Virus record (IMG/VR): IMGVR_UViG_3300010373_000457
Coordinates: 1-22,507 of that record
Source: a virus
Reading direction: 5' to 3' (one strand)
Length of the DNA stretch: 22,507 nucleotides
Position numbers and translations under genes: made by a program. The notes under the pieces were generated by a model that did no database searches, had not been told where the DNA came from, and saw nothing but the letters and a program-made list of their open reading frames with translations. Each line of letters begins with the position of its first letter. The stretch's first letter is position 1. Positions 5,348 to 21,975 of this stretch are shown one piece after another.

Positions 5348-5617
5348 TTACAGAAACTTAATAATCGGGAAATTAAGAGGAAGAACCAAATCGACCTCAT
5401 TTAATATCTTGGTTGGGTCTACAATCTCGTCGGTTAGACATAACTGCAACCTCCCTCTATTGATCTCATCAAACTCGCACTCCGCTGCAACCCAGAAGTC
5501 GATGCTATTACCATAAGGGCTTCCAGCTTTTAACCATTTGTGGTAAGCCGCTTCTCTCACTTGATTCTCACGATAGTTTCTCCACAATTCGGCTAGATCC
5601 GAAAGATAACACTCCAT
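5348..5617 (-). CDS. Small protein with DUF2934-like motif
   Basis: This 89-residue protein has a segment at about residues 20-51, REAAYHKWLKAGSPYGNS followed by IDFWVAAECEF. That matches the DUF2934 pattern (arginine, AY, W, aG.P.G, then W..AE). The role of that family is not known to me. The ATG overlaps the portal stop codon by one base (TAATG at 5617), indicating translational coupling with the portal gene. GGAGAA in the portal 3' end is a plausible ribosome binding site. The C-terminal about 35 residues are unrecognised. Confidence 0.65.
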   Translation of the reverse strand: MECYLSDLAELWRNYRENQVREAAYHKWLKAGSPYGNSIDFWVAAECEFDEINRGRLQLCLTDEIVDPTKILNEVDLVLPLNFPIIKFL

Positions 5618-8217
5618 TACAATTCTCCAAGCTCAATCGGGTCGATCTCCTCCTCGTCCTTCTCTTTGGAGAAATCACGAATCTCAAGGTCATACTTCTT
5701 GATGTCTTCATCCGAAGGTTCCGGTAGTGGTTTAGCTTCTGGTTTTGCTTGTGCGCCAGCCGGTCCACCTGCTTGAGTACCACCTGCGCCTCCGCCAGGA
5801 GGAGGTGGTGTTCCGCCACCAGCACCCTGATCGCCACCTTCCGGTTGTTCACCTTCGCCCCCAGCACCACTTGCTCCACCGGCACCCTGACCACCTCCCA
5901 ACATTGGGTTAGGACCACCGGCTTCACCACCCATCTCTTGATCGCCCTCACCGGGGTTGCCAAGACCTAACATCTCAGGGTTCTGACCCATGACCTGAAT
6001 CTTCATGTCCTCAATAGCCTGCATCTTCGCACGGCTTGACATCTCGCGAGCCACATCTGGCTGGTACTTGAGAATTTCAACCAAGGCGTCATACTTGCTC
6101 ATCAACTGAGCCTGGACAACGGTGGAAGCGTTAGTGTAACGCGCCTGCATGACCTCCATGCGAGACATTTCACGCCACTCGCTCGGAGGTGTTAACTTGA
6201 TCTCAAGGTCATCCCACATTTCCTGGGGATAGCCACGGAGCGTGAGGTGACGCTCAGCAATTTCTAGAAGCCCGTCTGCAAGGGAGGATTGTAGACGCTC
6301 GATATAACGGGCGAACTTCACGTCCTGGCTGGAAAGCGTCATCTTACTGACGTTCGGATCATCCTGAGACAGGTAGTTCTTCGGAAGATGTAACGCCGTG
6401 AGCAACTTGTTACGGAAATAAAGGGCGTCATCTACCTCGCCCAAGTTCTGCGCACCAGGCAGTGTCTCGATACGGGTGTTACCATTTGGACGAATTGGTA
6501 GCCAGAAGTCTTCGTCTTGTGCCGGTGCGTGCCATCTTTCTTCCACTGAGCCTGCACCACCCGTTTGCGAAGCACGGTTGGTGTACATCTTCTTCTTGCG
6601 TAGCTGGTCTTTCAGGCGCTCAATGAAGGCTTCAGCTTTGTTTGGCGGCAAACTACCAACATCGACATAGAAGACTCTTCTCTCAGGTGCGCGAGTTAAA
6701 CGATACACAACCATCGCATCTTCCATCAGACGTAACTGGTGCGCAGGACCGCGAGCCGGTTCGATGATGGATACACCATACGGATAAAACGTCTTGCGAT
6801 CATCACCGATCCGTATGTGAACAATCTGTTCAGGTGCAAAGCGAATAGCAGTCGCCTGGGCAAGTTCTGCATCATTCGCCTGCGTAACATCCACACGCGC
6901 GAGGGATTGATAGTCTGGACCTTCTTTGCTTTGCTGGAATTCCAGCAATTTACCCTTGGTAGTTTCAATGCGATAGATACTGTCTGCCGGAAGCGGGTTA
7001 ACTTTTAGCACACCCAGCTTTGGATTCTCTGGGTCAATAACAACCTCACCAAACCAATCTCCCATGCAGTACAAGTTCTTTGCCCAATTCCAAATCTTAC
7101 GATCTACCTTGAGCAACTTGTGATACATATACTCCAGTTCCTTCTTCACCGTCTCGTTCTTACAGACGATGTTAAAGGTGTGACCATTGTCACCAATCTG
7201 GCAGTTATGTAGAATGCAACTATCAGTAGCAAAATTCTCATGGTCATCAACGCTGATGTCATAAACATCAATTGTTGGACCCTTAGCGGTGCCGATGACA
7301 CGACGACGATCTGGATGACGAGCATTAAGAGACTTAACTTCTCGATAAGTAAAACCGTTCCTGCGTAGGAGGGTTTCAATTGTCTTCCAGTCAACCTTCT
7401 TCTCGCCGCCTAGAATCTTCTTGGTTTGTTCTAACTGAAGTCCTTCGGTGAGGCACTTGAGGGCTGTCTTCAAGCGGGGGTCGTACCCCGCCTTGTCGCC
7501 CATCCTCCACTCGTCCACGAACTGACGTTCGTGCTTCCAGCCGTCCGCGAAGGTGTAAATGCGTGGAAACTGACTTTGTTTACCGCTATTCAAACCATGC
7601 TGTACACGAACGCGGTAAAAAGGCATAAGTTCATCGCCGGTCTTGATGCTGCCAGCATGAACCCACTCCCCGTTTCTCAAAAGAACGCGGTGATCCTCAG
7701 TAAGCCTGAGCTTGGTTCCGTTATCGAGAAAGATGTCTACAGTGGGAGCAGTCTTGACTTTACGAGCATCATGACCCCATCCCAAGGTGTAATCTCCCCT
7801 ATGGAAGTCGTAACAGTAGACAAGGAACTTTTCCCCAGGTTTCTTGGTTTCCGCCAACTTCTGAATCGAGATATTGCCAAAAGGGGTAGAGACGGGGGTA
7901 TCGCCACTCACACAGGATTCGTCTGCCAAAATGTCAAGAGCAGCTTCTATTTCTGCCACATAGCGGAGACGTTCATACTCTTTGTAGCGACTTTGACGGT
8001 TGGTAACACTGGATAGGTCGATGAAGTCGTTGGAGTCACGCAGCCTGATCTGACCCCTATTACCTCCACCCCACCAGTTGTCGGCGCGGATGTCGGGAAT
8101 AGCATCAGGCTGTGTAACACCAACGCCGTCAAGCGTTTTCTCAGCACGCTTTCTCGACAGGGGGTCTGGCTTGAAGGCGTATGTGAAGTATTTGTAAAAG
8201 TCTGCCCAGAATGGCAT
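5617..8217 (-). CDS. 20: Portal protein, T4 gp20-like, interrupted by an intein
   Basis: The precursor has 866 residues. Residues 1-101 and 339-866 form a T4 gp20-type portal, the dodecameric channel at the capsid vertex through which terminase pumps DNA. Family features include SRYKEYERLRYVAEIEAALD before the intein, CQIGDNGHTF after it, and the segments KEYERL, GVSIIEPARGP, RAPERRVFYVDVG and PKNYLSQDDPNVSKMTLSSQD. Splicing would leave about 629 residues, longer than T4 gp20 (about 524). Part of the surplus is a Gly, Pro and Gln rich tail (about 745-830) ending in an acidic patch. The ATG at 8217 follows AAGGAA with good spacing, and an exact CTAAATA lies 49 bases upstream. The downstream small gene overlaps its stop by one base. 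Confidence 0.93.
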   Translation of the reverse strand: MPFWADFYKYFTYAFKPDPLSRKRAEKTLDGVGVTQPDAIPDIRADNWWGGGNRGQIRLRDSNDFIDLSSVTNRQSRYKEYERLRYVAEIEAALDILADESCVSGDTPVSTPFGNISIQKLAETKKPGEKFLVYCYDFHRGDYTLGWGHDARKVKTAPTVDIFLDNGTKLRLTEDHRVLLRNGEWVHAGSIKTGDELMPFYRVRVQHGLNSGKQSQFPRIYTFADGWKHERQFVDEWRMGDKAGYDPRLKTALKCLTEGLQLEQTKKILGGEKKVDWKTIETLLRRNGFTYREVKSLNARHPDRRRVIGTAKGPTIDVYDISVDDHENFATDSCILHNCQIGDNGHTFNIVCKNETVKKELEYMYHKLLKVDRKIWNWAKNLYCMGDWFGEVVIDPENPKLGVLKVNPLPADSIYRIETTKGKLLEFQQSKEGPDYQSLARVDVTQANDAELAQATAIRFAPEQIVHIRIGDDRKTFYPYGVSIIEPARGPAHQLRLMEDAMVVYRLTRAPERRVFYVDVGSLPPNKAEAFIERLKDQLRKKKMYTNRASQTGGAGSVEERWHAPAQDEDFWLPIRPNGNTRIETLPGAQNLGEVDDALYFRNKLLTALHLPKNYLSQDDPNVSKMTLSSQDVKFARYIERLQSSLADGLLEIAERHLTLRGYPQEMWDDLEIKLTPPSEWREMSRMEVMQARYTNASTVVQAQLMSKYDALVEILKYQPDVAREMSSRAKMQAIEDMKIQVMGQNPEMLGLGNPGEGDQEMGGEAGGPNPMLGGGQGAGGASGAGGEGEQPEGGDQGAGGGTPPPPGGGAGGTQAGGPAGAQAKPEAKPLPEPSDEDIKKYDLEIRDFSKEKDEEEIDPIELGEL
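7204..7914 (-). other. Mini-intein within the portal protein (237 residues)
   Basis: The intein spans precursor residues 102-338. Block A starts at Cys102 (CVSGDTPV). Block B contains the TEDH signature (Thr173, His176). Block F is VYDISVDDHENF, and the C-terminal splice site is His337-Asn338 followed by Cys339 of the extein. All residues of a standard class 1 intein are present, so it should splice. The roughly 100 residues between blocks B and F (about 201-305) show neither LAGLIDADG nor an HNH signature. They contain a helical segment and a basic stretch, so this is probably a mini-intein with a non-endonuclease or relic insertion. Joining DES to CQIGD restores a continuous portal sequence. 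Confidence 0.92.
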
Positions 8218-8289: not shown

Positions 8290-8832
8290 TCAGTACCTTG
8301 GATAAGAAAGCGGATTGTAGAAGCCATGATGCACCAACTTGTTTTTTAAGCCTTGTGCATCAAGCTGCCCGCTCTCAATCTGCTTTTCCCAAACAGGGAA
8401 TCTTTTGGCGTTGACATTAAGCATGTCCTTAAGCGGCTCTGCCACGTCCTTGTATCTTCCTATCTGACTGATCGCTTGAGATAGTTTTGGGAAATTCTGG
8501 AGTTGCTGGGCTATTTCAGGTTTTAGACCCTGAAGTTGAACAGGTGCCGCAGCAGGGCGACCCATATTCTGTCCCTGTTGTGGGTTTGATTGCGGGTTCG
8601 ATGTTTTGCCTGCTGCGGCACTTAGTTGCTGAACGTACTGCGCCATTGACTTGATCTTTTGCTCAACCCCTTGATATTGATTAGGGTTGTGTTGAGTCCA
8701 AGTGTTCACTGAGGTGGCAAGTTCTTCTAACTCACTAGCGGCTCGTTTCGCACGTTGGGCTATCATTCGTGGCATATTTTGTTGCCACTTGGCGTCCCAC
8801 TGCTCAACAACATACTGCTCAAAGGTCTTCAT
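8290..8832 (-). CDS. Gln-rich 180-residue protein with capsid-targeting-like N-terminus
   Basis: No family is recognised. The frame is open to 8847, but the start at 8832 (MKTFEQYVVEQ) is preferred. It gives a T4 capsid-targeting-like peptide (T4 consensus MKTYQEFIAE), and CTAAATA lies exactly five bases upstream. The five extra codons would be formed largely by that promoter motif. Residues 15-75 are helical. Residues 75-125 are rich in Gln, Asn, Ala and Pro and probably flexible. The C-terminus is Tyr-rich (YNPLSYPRY). There is no Shine-Dalgarno sequence before either ATG. It precedes the portal gene. An internal capsid or core role is inferred from N-terminus and position. Confidence 0.72.
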   Translation of the reverse strand: MKTFEQYVVEQWDAKWQQNMPRMIAQRAKRAASELEELATSVNTWTQHNPNQYQGVEQKIKSMAQYVQQLSAAAGKTSNPQSNPQQGQNMGRPAAAPVQLQGLKPEIAQQLQNFPKLSQAISQIGRYKDVAEPLKDMLNVNAKRFPVWEKQIESGQLDAQGLKNKLVHHGFYNPLSYPRY

Positions 8833-8844: not shown

Positions 8845-8851
8845 CATTGGG

Positions 8852-12773: not shown

Positions 12774-12780
12774 TATTTAG
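12774..12780 (-). promoter_or_regulatory. Late promoter CTAAATA five bases before the terminase ATG (leaderless)
   Basis: An exact CTAAATA is followed by GTGGT and the ATG at 12768. AAGGA is present, but more than 15 bases upstream of the ATG and before the promoter motif, so it would not be transcribed from here. The geometry predicts transcription starting on the initiation codon. Confidence 0.62.
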
Positions 12781-12848: not shown

Positions 12849-13403
12849 ATGCCGATTGAAAATGAACGGAAGTACGTCCTTCGCCTGAATACATCCGAAA
12901 AAAAAATCAGTGAAGCATCTGACTTCATGGAAGATATTGAGCAAGTGTACATCATGGTTGGCAAGAAACAGTCGGCTCGTATCCGTCTCATTCGCCTGTT
13001 CAGACCCGACAATTGGGTTGAATTCAAATATACCTTTACCTATAAGCAAGATGTGGGCAAGAAAACCGTGGAGGTTGAAACTCCATTAGACCCGCAGGAC
13101 TACCTTATGCTGAAGAAGGACGCTATCTTGAAGTTCAGGAAGCGGAGGTATAAGATTGGTGGTTGGGAAATTGACTTTTTCATTGATGGTGCGCCCGGTG
13201 AGATTTGTAAAACTTACTTCGTCCAAGCTGAAATCGAACTTCCCGAACACAGGAGGAAACCAAAAGAGATTCATCCTCTGGTTAAGGAAAACTTGCTTCA
13301 TGCAGTGAAGCGCGGAGATGGTCGTTTTTCTAGTAAAAAGCTGGGTGATATGAAGTATGCCCGGCGTCTGTTGCAATCCTTGTTGTTGGAGACGAAAGTA
13401 TGA
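12849..13403 (+). CDS. CYTH-domain protein (triphosphate tunnel metalloenzyme-like)
   Basis: This 184-residue protein carries the CYTH signature ExExK near the N-terminus (IENERKYVL, Glu4, Glu6, Lys8). Alternating charged strands typical of the triphosphate tunnel fold follow: ARIRLIR (about 43-49), VEFKYTFTY (57-65), WEIDFFID (about 108-115) and VQAEIELP (about 125-132). Family members hydrolyse inorganic triphosphate, thiamine triphosphate or RNA 5'-triphosphates, or make cAMP; the substrate is not determined here. GGAGGT lies seven bases before the ATG. The stop overlaps the ferritin-like start (ATGA at 13400-13403), so the two are translationally coupled. It starts divergently from terminase. 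No convincing promoter is seen in the 80-base gap on this strand. Confidence 0.82.
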   Translation: MPIENERKYVLRLNTSEKKISEASDFMEDIEQVYIMVGKKQSARIRLIRLFRPDNWVEFKYTFTYKQDVGKKTVEVETPLDPQDYLMLKKDAILKFRKRRYKIGGWEIDFFIDGAPGEICKTYFVQAEIELPEHRRKPKEIHPLVKENLLHAVKRGDGRFSSKKLGDMKYARRLLQSLLLETKV

Positions 13404-13903
13404 ATGATCAGATGAAAAATCACATCCAAATGAAGGTGCAAGCAGCGGAGGACTCCCTGCAAGACCTTGCGCCGGAAATGGTTAGAGAGCTTCAAAACGT
13501 GCTGATGCATGAGCGCAAGCATTTTAACTTCTATCTCCAGTCCTCCCTGGAGATTCGCGGCATGGAGAGACTTTATCTCAAGCCGCTTCTTGAGAAGGAA
13601 ATGGCTGGCGAACTGGAACACATCCGCATGTTCGGCGATAAAATTGTCGCCCTTGGCGGCAAGCCCACCGACGCCGCTCACGACTTCTGTCTTAGTCGTC
13701 TTGGTGAAGCTCTAAGCGCCCATACCATCTTATTGAAAGCCGTGAAGATGGAGCGAGAAGTCTTGGTTGTCTACCACGCACTTTATCCCAAGGCTGAGAA
13801 GTTTGCCGAAGCCTTCAATGATATGTCCATCGTCCTTATGCTAGAGGATAACATCGAGCATACTACGGCAGATGTTGAAGAGATGGAGAAGATCCTTGGC
13901 TAA
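13400..13903 (+). CDS. Ferritin-like four-helix protein
   Basis: This 167-residue, nearly all-helical protein has the layout of the ferritin-like superfamily. It has Glu38 in a first helix (HERKHFNFYL), ELEH in the second (Glu71, His74), a Glu in the third (Glu118 or Glu120 in KMEREVLVVYHAL), and a fourth helix with LEDNIEH (Glu149, Glu153, His154). These are plausible diiron ligands, though the last ExxH spacing is not canonical. It could store or oxidise iron, or act as a structural or oxidative-stress protein. The start overlaps the CYTH stop by four bases. It is followed by the long hairpin at 13911-13963 in front of the next gene. Confidence 0.75.
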   Translation: MNDQMKNHIQMKVQAAEDSLQDLAPEMVRELQNVLMHERKHFNFYLQSSLEIRGMERLYLKPLLEKEMAGELEHIRMFGDKIVALGGKPTDAAHDFCLSRLGEALSAHTILLKAVKMEREVLVVYHALYPKAEKFAEAFNDMSIVLMLEDNIEHTTADVEEMEKILG

Positions 13904-13910
13904 TCAAGAA

Positions 13911-13963
13911 TTGGGTTCCCTCCACTATATTACCATAACGGTAATTCAGTTGAGGGAACCCAA
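13911..13963 (+). promoter_or_regulatory. Long hairpin sequestering the ribosome binding site of the next gene
   Basis: A 12-base perfect inverted repeat (13911-13922 with 13952-13963) encloses a further 3-base pairing (13924-13926 with 13948-13950) and a 6-base inverted repeat ATTACC/GGTAAT (13929-13934 with 13940-13945) closed by a 5-base loop. The right outer arm contains the only Shine-Dalgarno sequence (GAGGG, 13952-13956) and the A of the start codon at 13963. There is no T-run, so it is not an intrinsic terminator. In an mRNA read through from the ferritin-like gene, the fold would mask initiation. Confidence 0.8.
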
Positions 13964-14808
13964 TGCCTTTCTACCAGAACGTATTCGACAACGACTTCAT
14001 CGGGCATCTTCTTCTTGAAGACAGGCAGTACGTCCTTGACTTCAAGGTGCCCGCAAACAAGAACAAGACCATCTACGCCTATGCGTGGGCGGTGCCGCCG
14101 TACAACACGGTTGGCAACACCTCTTTGACCATCAACTACTCGATTGACGCTGGTGCCACTTGGTACTCATTTAACGTCACATTGACTTCTGGTTCGGCGC
14201 AAACCGCCGCCCAGGTCGTCGCTGACCTGAATGGTGATCAGAACTTTGCCTCCCTGTTCACGGCAATTGCTGTTCAATTAGGGGATCAGTCGTACCGTTT
14301 GATGATCCAAGCAAACTCCACCCAGAGAGAGCGCTTCAAGTTCTACATTTCCAATACCGGCGCAGAAACCGTTCTCAGGTTCAACGCAATGGCTGGTGTG
14401 GCACAGTTGCCGGCTTACTTCGACAGACATACCATCGCCAATTTCCAGGCTCACGGTCCTGGCGGCGATAATACCTACCCAGATTCCTTGGGTACACTGG
14501 TGAAGTTGAATCAGCCAACAGATAATTGGTATATTACTAATGCCGGCTTGAGTACAACGGCATCAGCGGATTGGCAGCTTCTTCGTGGGCGTTCCAGGGC
14601 ATTTATGTTCCAGAACATCGCCACGGACTCTGGAAACAGCAACCGCATTACTTCAATCATTGAGTATCCGGCAGGCGCACAGGCGGGAGATTTGGCAAAG
14701 AAGACCGAGTATGTTTACAGCAGCGGGAACACAACCACTCAGCCAAACTACACCTTCGAGATTCCTTATGTCTTGCAGGCGTCTGACTTGACCACGATCC
14801 CAACGTAA
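13963..14808 (+). CDS. Unrecognised beta-rich protein, possible virion surface or decoration protein
   Basis: This 281-residue protein has a beta-strand-rich, Thr, Ser, Asn and Tyr rich composition with few Lys or Cys. The pattern is common in phage structural, decoration or fibre-associated proteins. Segments such as TSLTINYSIDAGATWYSFNV and the C-terminal NYTFEIPYVLQASDLTTIP suggest immunoglobulin-like or jelly-roll strands. No signal peptide, membrane segment or catalytic motif is seen. The ATG is the only sensible start and its GAGGG ribosome binding site lies in the right arm of the hairpin at 13911-13963. Structural function is inferred from composition and from the tight translation control expected for an abundant or late product. 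Confidence 0.7.
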   Translation: MPFYQNVFDNDFIGHLLLEDRQYVLDFKVPANKNKTIYAYAWAVPPYNTVGNTSLTINYSIDAGATWYSFNVTLTSGSAQTAAQVVADLNGDQNFASLFTAIAVQLGDQSYRLMIQANSTQRERFKFYISNTGAETVLRFNAMAGVAQLPAYFDRHTIANFQAHGPGGDNTYPDSLGTLVKLNQPTDNWYITNAGLSTTASADWQLLRGRSRAFMFQNIATDSGNSNRITSIIEYPAGAQAGDLAKKTEYVYSSGNTTTQPNYTFEIPYVLQASDLTTIPT

Positions 14809-14837: not shown

Positions 14838-14844
14838 CTAAATA
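14838..14844 (+). promoter_or_regulatory. Late promoter CTAAATA upstream of 14880
   Basis: An exact CTAAATA followed by CGGG lies 35 bases before the ATG at 14880 in a 71-base gap. The predicted leader of about 30 bases contains AGGGAGG at the normal Shine-Dalgarno distance. Unlike the terminase-type copies, this one gives an ordinary leadered mRNA. Confidence 0.65.
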
Positions 14845-18530: not shown

Positions 18531-18684
18531 TCCTCTCCTGTAGTTCTTCTTTCCATTCCCGCCGCAACCAGCGCGTCCAGTAGCGTTTATCATCGCTATT
18601 CCAGCGTTCTTGGTCAAAACGACCGTCGCCGTCGTACTCGTACCTGACGTGAGTACGACGGCGACCTATCTGAAAATTACTCAT
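18439..18684 (-). CDS. Small His/Asp/Arg-rich protein, unknown
   Basis: This 81-residue, highly charged protein has an N-terminal Arg/Tyr/Asp part (RRRTHVRYEYDGDGRF), a Trp/Arg helix (RYWTRWLRREWKEELQER) and a His-Asp-rich tail (DHHANDKHDDLD). No family is recognised. Its ATG lies eight bases before the end of the upstream gene, in the coupling style of this region. The first 20 codons contain a 15-base perfect inverted repeat (18625-18665). The 3' 92 bases overlap the convergent Cys-rich gene, so one of the two ends may be misjudged. Confidence 0.5.
   Translation of the reverse strand: MSNFQIGRRRTHVRYEYDGDGRFDQERWNSDDKRYWTRWLRREWKEELQERIKDHHANDKHDDLDKEERHTSDQRSHHSEW
18625..18665. repeat. 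15-base perfect inverted repeat inside a coding region
   Basis: GTCGCCGTCGTACTC (18625-18639) and its exact reverse complement (18651-18665) are separated by 11 bases. It lies in the 5' part of the minus-strand 81-residue gene, a few codons after its start. The stem is GC-rich and stable, with no T-run on either side. It could be an mRNA structure that controls translation, or a protein-binding site. Confidence 0.85.
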
Positions 18685-19687: not shown

Positions 19688-20041
19688 TCACTTGACCACT
19701 CGCGTGTTGACTTCAGGTTGTTTACCTGGCTTGTAAGCGCCACCATCAACGTCCTTCTCGCTGTGGAGATGGATTGTGTAAATCTTGTTTCGCAACTCGT
19801 ACCACATGGGTTCTTTTTCAAGCACATCCAAGACGATGATCGCCTTGTACTCCCAATAACTGCCGTAGTTCAACCGATCAGTTTTGATTGTTTGCCCGTC
19901 CCGCACCAATGCACTGTACTCGCCAGGATGATGCATGAATACACGAACTACCTCTTGTTTTGTGACAGCCGGTCTACTGTTGCCGCAGCAACCCACAAGA
20001 GTGACAAGGGCTAAAGCAGCAGCACAAATGATCTTTCTCAT
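19688..20041 (-). CDS. Putative lipoprotein, leaderless mRNA predicted
   Basis: This 117-residue protein has a lipoprotein signal: MRK, hydrophobic residues 4-16, and the lipobox LVGC with Cys18 as the lipidated residue. The mature part (about 100 residues) is mixed strand and helix without a recognised family (EVVRVFMHHPGEYSALVRDG and KDVDGGAYKPGKQPEV). It would sit in the inner or outer membrane facing the periplasm; superinfection exclusion is one known role for phage lipoproteins, but nothing here proves it. There is no Shine-Dalgarno sequence before the ATG; TATAAT ends exactly six bases upstream, so transcription should start on the ATG. It forms a single-gene unit with its own promoter and terminator. 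Confidence 0.8.
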   Translation of the reverse strand: MRKIICAAALALVTLVGCCGNSRPAVTKQEVVRVFMHHPGEYSALVRDGQTIKTDRLNYGSYWEYKAIIVLDVLEKEPMWYELRNKIYTIHLHSEKDVDGGAYKPGKQPEVNTRVVK

Positions 20042-20047
20042 GGTGGT

Positions 20048-20076
20048 ATTATACTAAAAAAGAAAGCCGGTTGCAA
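20048..20076 (-). promoter_or_regulatory. Sigma70-type promoter placing transcription start on the ATG, -35 within a terminator
   Basis: On the minus strand TTGCAA (20076-20071), a 17-base spacer and TATAAT (20053-20048) are followed by ACCACC and the ATG at 20041. Counting TATAAT as -12 to -7 puts +1 at the A of ATG. The -35 lies in the terminator hairpin of the methyltransferase gene, straddling its loop and descending arm. Confidence 0.78.
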
Positions 20077-20094
20077 CATGCAACCGGCTTTCTT
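20056..20094 (-). terminator. Intrinsic terminator of the restriction-modification operon
   Basis: A 16-base perfect stem (20079-20094 with 20060-20075) with a 3-base loop is followed on the minus strand by a six-T run (20061-20056), four bases after the methyltransferase stop codon. Its descending arm contributes most of the -35 box of the lipoprotein promoter. Confidence 0.93.
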
Positions 20095-20098
20095 GAAC

Positions 20099-21199
20099 TT
20101 AGCTCGCGAGTTTTTTCTTCTCGTCTTTGGGCTTGGACTTGATGGGCAACTTCTTAGCCTTCTCTTTGGCTTTTGCTTTCGCTTTCTCCTTCTTTGCTTT
20201 TACTTTCTTTGCTGCTGCCTCCTCAGCTAACTCTACATCGTTTACCGTGGCTTGGCTAATTCTACTCTCAGCAATTGAGATGTATTCTTTGTCTAACTCA
20301 ATTCCCGTATACACCCTACCTAGCCGAACAGCAGCTACCGCTGTAGTTCCAGATCCCATAAAGGGATCAAGAACGTAATCACCAGGATTGGTGAACAACT
20401 TGATGAACCAAGTTGGTAGCGATATTGGAAACGCTGCGCTGTGGTTTTTGTTACCACACTCTGTCGCTAAATGTAGTACATTCTCCATCATAGGAGGTTC
20501 TACCTGTACTTTGATCTCAGGGTGACTTTTGATTAAGTAATCCAAGAGAAGACACGGTATGTTCCCCATGTCTCTTTCGTCAAGTATAAGGTCTTGGATG
20601 ATATCATCCTCAAGGTGCAGTACATTGGTGGGATAGACCTTTTCTTTCCCTACCCAATTGGAGACATTCTTTCCAAACCCGGAACCCACTTTTGAGTTGT
20701 CTCTTACTTTGTCGGTGTCGCTTAAGTGAGCCAATCGGGTTTTAGCCCAATCTCCAATTGGAACCATCACAGACTCCTGATTCATCAAAAAATCCCTCTG
20801 CTTGTTGAAGTGAAGGCATCTTTCCCACGAATCACGAAATCTGTTTTTCCATTTCCCAGGAAAGGAGTTCTTTTTGCACCAAATGAACTCTTCCGTCCAA
20901 AGCCATCCATGCTCCCTCATCATCTTAATGAGGTCGATGACGTAGGTACTTCGCTCCCCGTTAACAACTTTCTCTTTGATGTTGAGGATGAAAGTGCCAT
21001 TAGGTTTCAATACCCGATGCAGTTCCTTTGCAATAGGTTCAAACCAACCTACATATTTGTCGGGGTGAATGCCGCCGTATGTGTTTTTTCGCTGGTCCGC
21101 GTAAGGCGGCGATGTCATAATCAATTGATAGAGGCTATCTGGTACTTCTTTTAAGACAGAACCACAGTCGCCGAGCAGGATCTCGTTTTCGATTTTCAT
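20099..21199 (-). CDS. DNA methyltransferase, probably N4-cytosine type
   Basis: Starting at the ATG at 21199 (GAGGA upstream), the protein has 366 residues. The catalytic motif TSPPY is at 29-33 and the AdoMet-binding motif DPFMGSGTT at 278-286. Catalytic motif before AdoMet motif is the beta-class order. SPPY favours N4-cytosine over N6-adenine, but not absolutely. NHSAAFPISLP (about 252-262) is typical of the family. The segment between 192 and 244 is unusual: NVLHL occurs twice, 48 residues apart, flanking an apparent insertion. The tail (about 318-366) is extremely Lys-rich and may bind DNA. It lies eight bases after the putative restriction endonuclease stop and should protect phage or host DNA from it. 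Confidence 0.9.
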   Translation of the reverse strand: MKIENEILLGDCGSVLKEVPDSLYQLIMTSPPYADQRKNTYGGIHPDKYVGWFEPIAKELHRVLKPNGTFILNIKEKVVNGERSTYVIDLIKMMREHGWLWTEEFIWCKKNSFPGKWKNRFRDSWERCLHFNKQRDFLMNQESVMVPIGDWAKTRLAHLSDTDKVRDNSKVGSGFGKNVSNWVGKEKVYPTNVLHLEDDIIQDLILDERDMGNIPCLLLDYLIKSHPEIKVQVEPPMMENVLHLATECGNKNHSAAFPISLPTWFIKLFTNPGDYVLDPFMGSGTTAVAAVRLGRVYTGIELDKEYISIAESRISQATVNDVELAEEAAAKKVKAKKEKAKAKAKEKAKKLPIKSKPKDEKKKLAS

Positions 21200-21207
21200 T
21201 TTTATCC

Positions 21208-21975
21208 TCAATCAAGGTCCAGGTCGTACAAATCAGGGAAGTCAATCATGCCGCTGGGGAGGGTATATTCCTCGGCAAATTCTCGAAGGCTCCTTGCAGC
21301 GCCTTGTTTAGCGAGCTTCATGTCACTCCCCATCGCCCTACGAGCAGCGTCAATCGCCGGGACGATCACCGTGTTACAAAAATCTGTCACACCAGTGATG
21401 AATTCCCAGAACATCTTGTTACTCACTACCAAGATACCAACTTCACCAGCGGCAGTGTGGTAGACTTCTCTTTTTTTGTAGTTTTTGCCGCCAGTGTACC
21501 CCCAGATGTTTAGTACATCGCGATGGTAGAAGTCTCGTAATGTTCGTGCATATTCACCCATCTTCCTAGCTAGAGCCTCTTTTGCAGCGGAGTTGCCCCA
21601 CTTGTCTGACGACTTAGCTTGCAAGTGCGCCTGCTTATTTCCCTTTTTGAAAACCGCATCAAGATCAACAGGCTTCTTTCTTTCTCCTTGTCGAATCTCT
21701 GCGTCCGGGTATACCAGTGTTATCAGGTCTTCGGCATATGCTCCAAGCACGTTGCCCATCCTCGTCTCGAACGATGACGCAAAAAAACGACTCATTTCCT
21801 CTGTAGCCCAATCAAGGGGCGAAACGCCACTGTGGGCAATGGCGCAATACATATTCTTTTCGAGTATCTTGTTGGCGATCTTCTCTTCGTTTCTTAGCAT
21901 GTCGATGACATCGCAGTACATGCTTATAACGCTTTCTTTCAAATTCTCTCTTGCCTCACTTAAATCCAAAATCAC
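21208..21975 (-). CDS. Putative type II restriction endonuclease (PD-(D/E)xK-like)
   Basis: This 255-residue protein starts at GTG (21975) behind AAGGAG. No close family is recognised with certainty. It has a plausible PD-(D/E)xK nuclease core: Glu82 in a helix (GAYAEDLITLVYP), PVDLDAVF (Asp104, Asp106) and HLQAKSS (Gln119, Lys121), with Gln in place of the usual Asp or Glu. It is immediately upstream of, and on the same strand as, a DNA methyltransferase, the standard layout of a type II restriction-modification pair. The role is therefore supported mostly by context and length. It could restrict competing phage DNA. The upstream gap holds an 8-base inverted repeat but no clear sigma70 promoter. 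Confidence 0.68.
   Translation of the reverse strand: MILDLSEARENLKESVISMYCDVIDMLRNEEKIANKILEKNMYCAIAHSGVSPLDWATEEMSRFFASSFETRMGNVLGAYAEDLITLVYPDAEIRQGERKKPVDLDAVFKKGNKQAHLQAKSSDKWGNSAAKEALARKMGEYARTLRDFYHRDVLNIWGYTGGKNYKKREVYHTAAGEVGILVVSNKMFWEFITGVTDFCNTVIVPAIDAARRAMGSDMKLAKQGAARSLREFAEEYTLPSGMIDFPDLYDLDLD

Follow-up and report, generated by a model that had tools for sequence, protein, structure and literature searches.

Several late genes of phage T4 are kept silent in transcripts that enter them from upstream. In the leaders of genes e, soc, 49, and I-TevI, the SD sequence and/or the AUG is sequestered in upstream-initiated RNA (PMC3014915). For gene e, long transcripts fold an inhibitory helix that represses about 100-fold, and late promoters situated where the DNA specifies the 5' strand of this helix give rise to RNA without that strand (PMC3014915). 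In phage Aeh1, the late promoter is CTAAATA, beginning at position -12 (PMC1524935). Here, we compare these systems with a hairpin at the start of a gene in an uncultured phage.

The DNA analyzed (22.5 kb; hereafter, the window) is a whole virus record that encodes a T4-superfamily terminase, a portal, and a head protease; judged by these genes, its source is a T4-superfamily phage. Phage records searched for DNA similarity to the window yielded none, and no relatives were confirmed in a search of bacterial genomes. The gene under study encodes 281 aa and follows CYTH-like and ferritin-like genes (Table 1). It had been described as structural-type, a label that the searches support weakly: 3 of 12 homologues matched PHROG 584 (major tail protein; best E value, 8e-5), the domain fold matches to FliD and tail sheath were weak, and a fold search with a structure model (pLDDT 77) returned no significant match. 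The closest homologue is encoded on a 7.8-kb contig (L003/L006; 78% at the amino acid level), followed by those in a 430-kb record (L004; 46%) and in the 595-kb record LR756511 (L005; 35%). Thirteen further homologue loci were found, several of them in records of 223 to 533 kb.

The original prediction of a 53-nt hairpin with 12 perfect outer pairs, comprising GAGGG and the first base of the ATG and extended by inner stems, was confirmed letter for letter. Counting a pair between A13910 and the U of the AUG would lengthen the stem formed by the arms TTGGGTTCCCTC and GAGGGAACCCAA to 13 bp, and the inner helices are ACT/AGT and ATTACC/GGTAAT. The minimum free energy was -31.6 kcal/mol (z = -8.0); shuffled sequences averaged -10.98 kcal/mol, and none of 200 folded as well. 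Perfect arms of at least 12 bp with a loop of at most 40 nt occur at four places in the window, this hairpin included, against 0.08 hits in each Markov shuffle. When read-through RNA was folded, the computed probability that the SD is unpaired was 0.001, consistent with the proposal that the ribosome binding site and start codon are hidden, and opening the stretch from the SD to the AUG cost 23.0 kcal/mol in silico. From this folding, we would likewise expect read-through mRNA to be translationally silent at 13963. The hairpin had been predicted not to be an intrinsic terminator, and indeed the stem is followed directly by TGCC and then TTTCT, a T-run is absent, and a terminator scan of the + strand at the hairpin found nothing. 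A sigma-70 promoter sought at the hairpin was not found either. A possible RNA switch had also been suggested, for which nothing specific emerged: an Rfam search returned only sub-threshold microRNA and lncRNA matches, none above the gathering score.

Table 1. Positions of the hairpin, the candidate promoter elements, and the surrounding genes in the window
Feature	Position	Strand	Remarks
Outer-stem 5' arm (anti-SD arm), TTGGGTTCCCTC	13911..13922	+	
Outer-stem 3' arm, GAGGGAACCCAA	13952..13963	+	GAGGG (SD, 13952-13956) through A of ATG
Inner 6-bp helix ATTACC/GGTAAT with 5-nt apical loop AUAAC	13929..13945	+	Loop at 13935-13939
Late-promoter-like -10 element CTATATTA	13925..13932	+	VTAWATTA variant of VTANATA/CTAAATA, inside hairpin; identical in L003/L006
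Predicted late +1 (A in apical loop)	13937	+	12 nt after C of CTATATTA; position from leaderless genes and Aeh1
CTAAATA before leaderless terL	12774..12780	-	12 nt before ATG; calibrates +1
CTAAATA upstream of next gene (14880)	14838..14844	+	Conserved in L006
Leaderless gene starts with VTANATA 11-12 nt upstream	terL, 12768; metallophosphatase, 17631; 8832; 4372	-; -; -; +	In window
CYTH-like gene (name from the original prediction)	12849..13403	+	Upstream; PHROG 6660, unknown function
Ferritin-like gene	13400..13903	+	Upstream; source of any read-through mRNA
281-aa gene with hidden start	13963..14808	+	Structural/tail-type, weak assignment

The hairpin is kept in L003. A G added in its 5' arm is matched by an A-to-C change beside the AUG (pair T-A to G-C), the internal bulge differs (TTC versus CACAGA) with the helices undisturbed, and neither the loop nor the inner stem shows any change. 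The block TTCCCTCCACTATATTACCATAACGGTAA is likewise identical, whereas divergence is seen immediately before it, in the end of the ferritin gene. An exact scan of viral contigs with the 23-nt core matched L006 only; the same scan with a 24-nt arm gave no match. This single compensatory event in a single relative would count as support for the hairpin rather than as deep covariation.

Motif positions were calibrated on seven related large phages (W01, which is LR756511, and G001 to G006; loci L023 to L138) plus the window, covering about 2 Mb and 2,548 ATG genes. VTANATA was found 11 nt before the ATG in 78 genes and 12 nt before it in 48 (126 total), against a background of 3.9 per position further upstream. 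Its best form is CTAAATA. Reversed CTAAATA produced no peak before ATGs, and some other reversed forms gave a few near hits in G002. Among single-base variants, position 1 tolerated any base except T, position 4 was free, and the others were nearly fixed, with T rare at position 7. Taken together with the position of the Aeh1 promoter, this spacing puts the ATG at or next to +1, suggesting leaderless late genes, and we infer a transcription start 12 nt beyond the first base of the motif. The core motif and its distance to the deduced start are those of Aeh1 late promoters (PMC1524935); unlike in Aeh1, position 4 in the large phages is unconstrained, any base but T can come first, and many ATGs lie at the predicted +1. 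Resemblance to T4 and Aeh1, placement before head genes, and the presence of gp55-family genes suggest that VTANATA-type motifs act as late promoters in these phages. A profile search detected a gp55-family late sigma factor (phrog_234) in five of the seven relatives (E values of 7e-8 to 3e-11), although a single-sequence search with T4 gp55 returned nothing; a T4-type clamp (phrog_223), sought in the relatives, was not found. No gp55 was visible within the window, which at 22.5 kb is too short to judge the gene set of the phage. Within the window, CTAAATA itself stands before several genes, among them terL, the portal gene, and the 14880 gene, and L006 keeps it at the three comparable sites. 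The T4 consensus TATAAATA has no exact copy in the window, and near matches to it are no more frequent than expected by chance.

N termini resembling those of T4 internal proteins (MKTYQEF/MKTFKEF) were found in 53 of the 126 leaderless late genes, compared to 82 of 2,211 genes without the motif, which suggests that huge phages carry many capsid-targeted internal proteins. Genes 8832 (-), 4372 (+), and 5312 (-) of the window have such N termini (e.g., MKTFEQYVVEQ and MPVKSFKQYVED). The start of the 185-aa open reading frame at 8847-8290 (-) is probably at 8832 (ATGAAGACC), 12 nt after CTAAATA, rather than at 8847. Upstream of genes in W01 (L023 to L042), GCTGTAC/AGCTGTA was strongly enriched (29 versus about 5 expected) and is perhaps another promoter or regulatory motif. 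Elsewhere in the window, the portal open reading frame (866 aa; 5617-8217, -) contains an intein-like insert (CVSGDTPVSTPFG ... VDDHENFATDSCILHNC), with a similar insert in L006, and an N6/N4 DNA methylase gene adjoins one for an EcoO109I-type restriction endonuclease (20099-21975, -), forming a restriction-modification pair in a phage. A 16-bp perfect terminator-like hairpin with a T-run (20041-20094, -) leads directly into TATAAT, which precedes the ATG at 20041 by 12 nt, and a 15-bp perfect inverted repeat lies between convergent genes at 18625-18665.

The candidate promoter within the hairpin, CTATATTA, differs from the consensus CTAAATA, in which the A at position 7 is almost invariant elsewhere. 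In phage G002, two ATGs have CTATATT, and the full 8-mer CTATATTA, at a distance of exactly 12 nt, and VTAWATTA was found 9 to 15 nt before an ATG 12 times versus 3.6 expected. The chance of such a motif within 10 given positions is about 0.004 (post hoc). With the predicted +1 located in the apical loop, none of the 5' arm would be present in late mRNA, and in RNA from 13937 the in silico cost of opening the SD-to-AUG stretch dropped to 5.5 kcal/mol. The same method gave a decrease from 15.9 to 1.9 kcal/mol for T4 gene e, for which the late RNA modeled begins downstream of part of the SD, but it did not reproduce T4 soc (7.6 versus 6.3 kcal/mol); the opening costs therefore serve as a guide only. 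Of 152 motif sites, none paired more strongly across its predicted start than the window hairpin. The general proposition that late promoters always lie in hairpins was rejected genome-wide, the enrichment being modest (36 of 152 sites versus 16% of controls; P = 0.015; whole distribution, P = 0.097).

Hairpins recurred at homologues of the 281-aa gene. In L011, the hairpin TCCCTAAATAAAGAAG-GTAGA-CTTCTTAACTTAGGGGA (z = -4.2) carries CTAAATA in its 5' arm and the SD in its 3' arm. The hairpins of L009 and L005 have ATAAATA/TATAAATA as part of the loop, their 3' arm contains the SD, and both are weak (z = -0.7 for L005 and -1.2 for L009). Terminator-like hairpins stand at the same place in L014, L020, and L021 (CTAAATA in the loop; one clade by shared upstream sequence) and in L018 (16 bp; CTACATA in the loop), and in L013 a terminator is followed by TATAAATA. 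SD-hiding hairpins thus occur in three homologues (two weak) and terminator-like hairpins in two lineages, and some homologues have none. These structures are unrelated in sequence, those of L005, L009, L011, and L014 having only the late motif in common. Pairing across the predicted start was stronger in the 281-aa gene family than at 190 other motif genes (P = 0.005; eight lineages), and among hairpins with stems of at least 6 bp upstream of ATGs, 11 loops contained the late motif versus 3.8 expected, with the three strongest all at the 281-aa gene. The original prediction had counted relatives that keep the gene without the pairing as evidence against a functional hairpin. The outcome was mixed: L003 keeps its pairing, but L012 has the late motif without a hairpin and L004 and L016 have neither, suggesting that the device is frequent, not universal, at this gene.

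The terminator-like hairpins share with the window hairpin the gene, the place, and a late motif inside and would block read-through only. In contrast to the window hairpin, which is predicted to block translation, those of L014, L020, L021, and L018 have a T-run, leave the SD outside, and would block transcription. We also observed that terminator-like hairpins with the late motif in the loop (L014, L015, L020, L021, and L018 about 5930-5990) would stop read-through and not RNA started inside, and that some stem bases vary among L014, L020, and L021. It is conceivable, at a confidence that stops just short of even, that unrelated hairpins, each enclosing its own late promoter, have repeatedly come to shield a single virion-type gene of huge phages from upstream transcription, with RBS hiding in some lineages and a loop-promoter terminator in others, and that this self-insulating logic evolved more than once at that gene.

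Among the escape routes listed in the original prediction, the internal promoter gained support from the late-type motif inside the hairpin, the calibrated start in the apical loop, and the same layout at several homologues; for an RNA-binding repressor or a thermosensor, nothing specific was found. A translational repressor or autoregulatory site, in which a phage protein binds the hairpin (AUAAC loop, TTACC/GGTAA stem) and an internal promoter is absent, is unlikely. The unchanged loop and inner stem of L003, despite the altered bulge next to them, fit such a site, and the UAAC loop found in the hairpin to which T4 gp43 binds is a sequence also present here. However, the structure is closed by itself, with the SD almost never unpaired, and the L005, L009, L011, and L014 hairpins have no loop or stem sequence in common. 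Less probable is that the hairpin is a terminator, barrier, or 3'-end stabilizer of the ferritin mRNA that overlaps the start of the next gene by chance. The sequence after the window stem and the empty + strand scan argue against it. The hairpins of L014, L020, L021, and L018 resemble intrinsic terminators with a T-run, and TTTTT lies a few bases beyond the L003 stem, but the Ts encode a conserved protein start (MPFYQN/MPFFQN). A protein-binding operator or other palindromic site at the DNA level, also raised originally, is very improbable: although a near-perfect palindrome is conserved with L003, nothing specific supports this role, the window has a single copy of the loop palindrome TTACC-N5-GGTAA, with no repeats of it at other promoters, and the compensatory change and SD overlap maintain pairing, as expected of RNA. 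That the hairpin is real but has no role in regulatory timing, with a chance AT-rich motif and merely some cost to translation, is hardly credible, since despite the non-consensus motif and the homologues without a hairpin, conservation in the nearest relative is compensated, the window hairpin is the strongest crossing hairpin of 152 sites, and hairpins recur at the same gene.

We consider it likely that the hairpin contains an internal late promoter and locks translation of a late gene in the manner of T4 gene e and I-TevI. Read-through RNA coming from the CYTH and ferritin genes would fold the 53-nt hairpin, hiding GAGGG together with the A of the AUG, and the 281-aa protein would not be made. 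Late in infection, a gp55-type sigma factor would bring RNA polymerase to CTATATTA at 13925; RNA begun at about A13937 would lack the 5' arm, leaving the SD and AUG free, and the protein would be made. We infer that the promoter is used and used late, that read-through occurs early, and how strong the repression is, and we assume that the early read-through comes from the CYTH and ferritin genes. We class the locus as probably working like the gene e device because the predicted anatomy matches point by point, save for the variant candidate promoter. As in the T4 leaders (PMC3014915), SD and AUG are predicted to be sequestered in upstream-initiated RNA, a candidate late promoter lies within the 5'-strand DNA, and late mRNA would lack that strand; the predicted relief of structure is similar to that of gene e. 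Unlike the T4 leaders, the locus belongs to another phage lineage and a different, structural-type gene, its hairpin is much stronger (12- to 13-bp outer stem plus inner stems), and the candidate promoter motif is CTATATTA instead of TATAAATA.

These data would extend a textbook T4 regulatory trick to uncultured giant phages, about which very little is known experimentally, and would tie it to their late-promoter motif. In addition, the repeated enclosure of a late promoter by dissimilar hairpins at a single gene suggests that early expression of its product is harmful, which provides a lead that can be tested for an otherwise uncharacterized virion-type protein.
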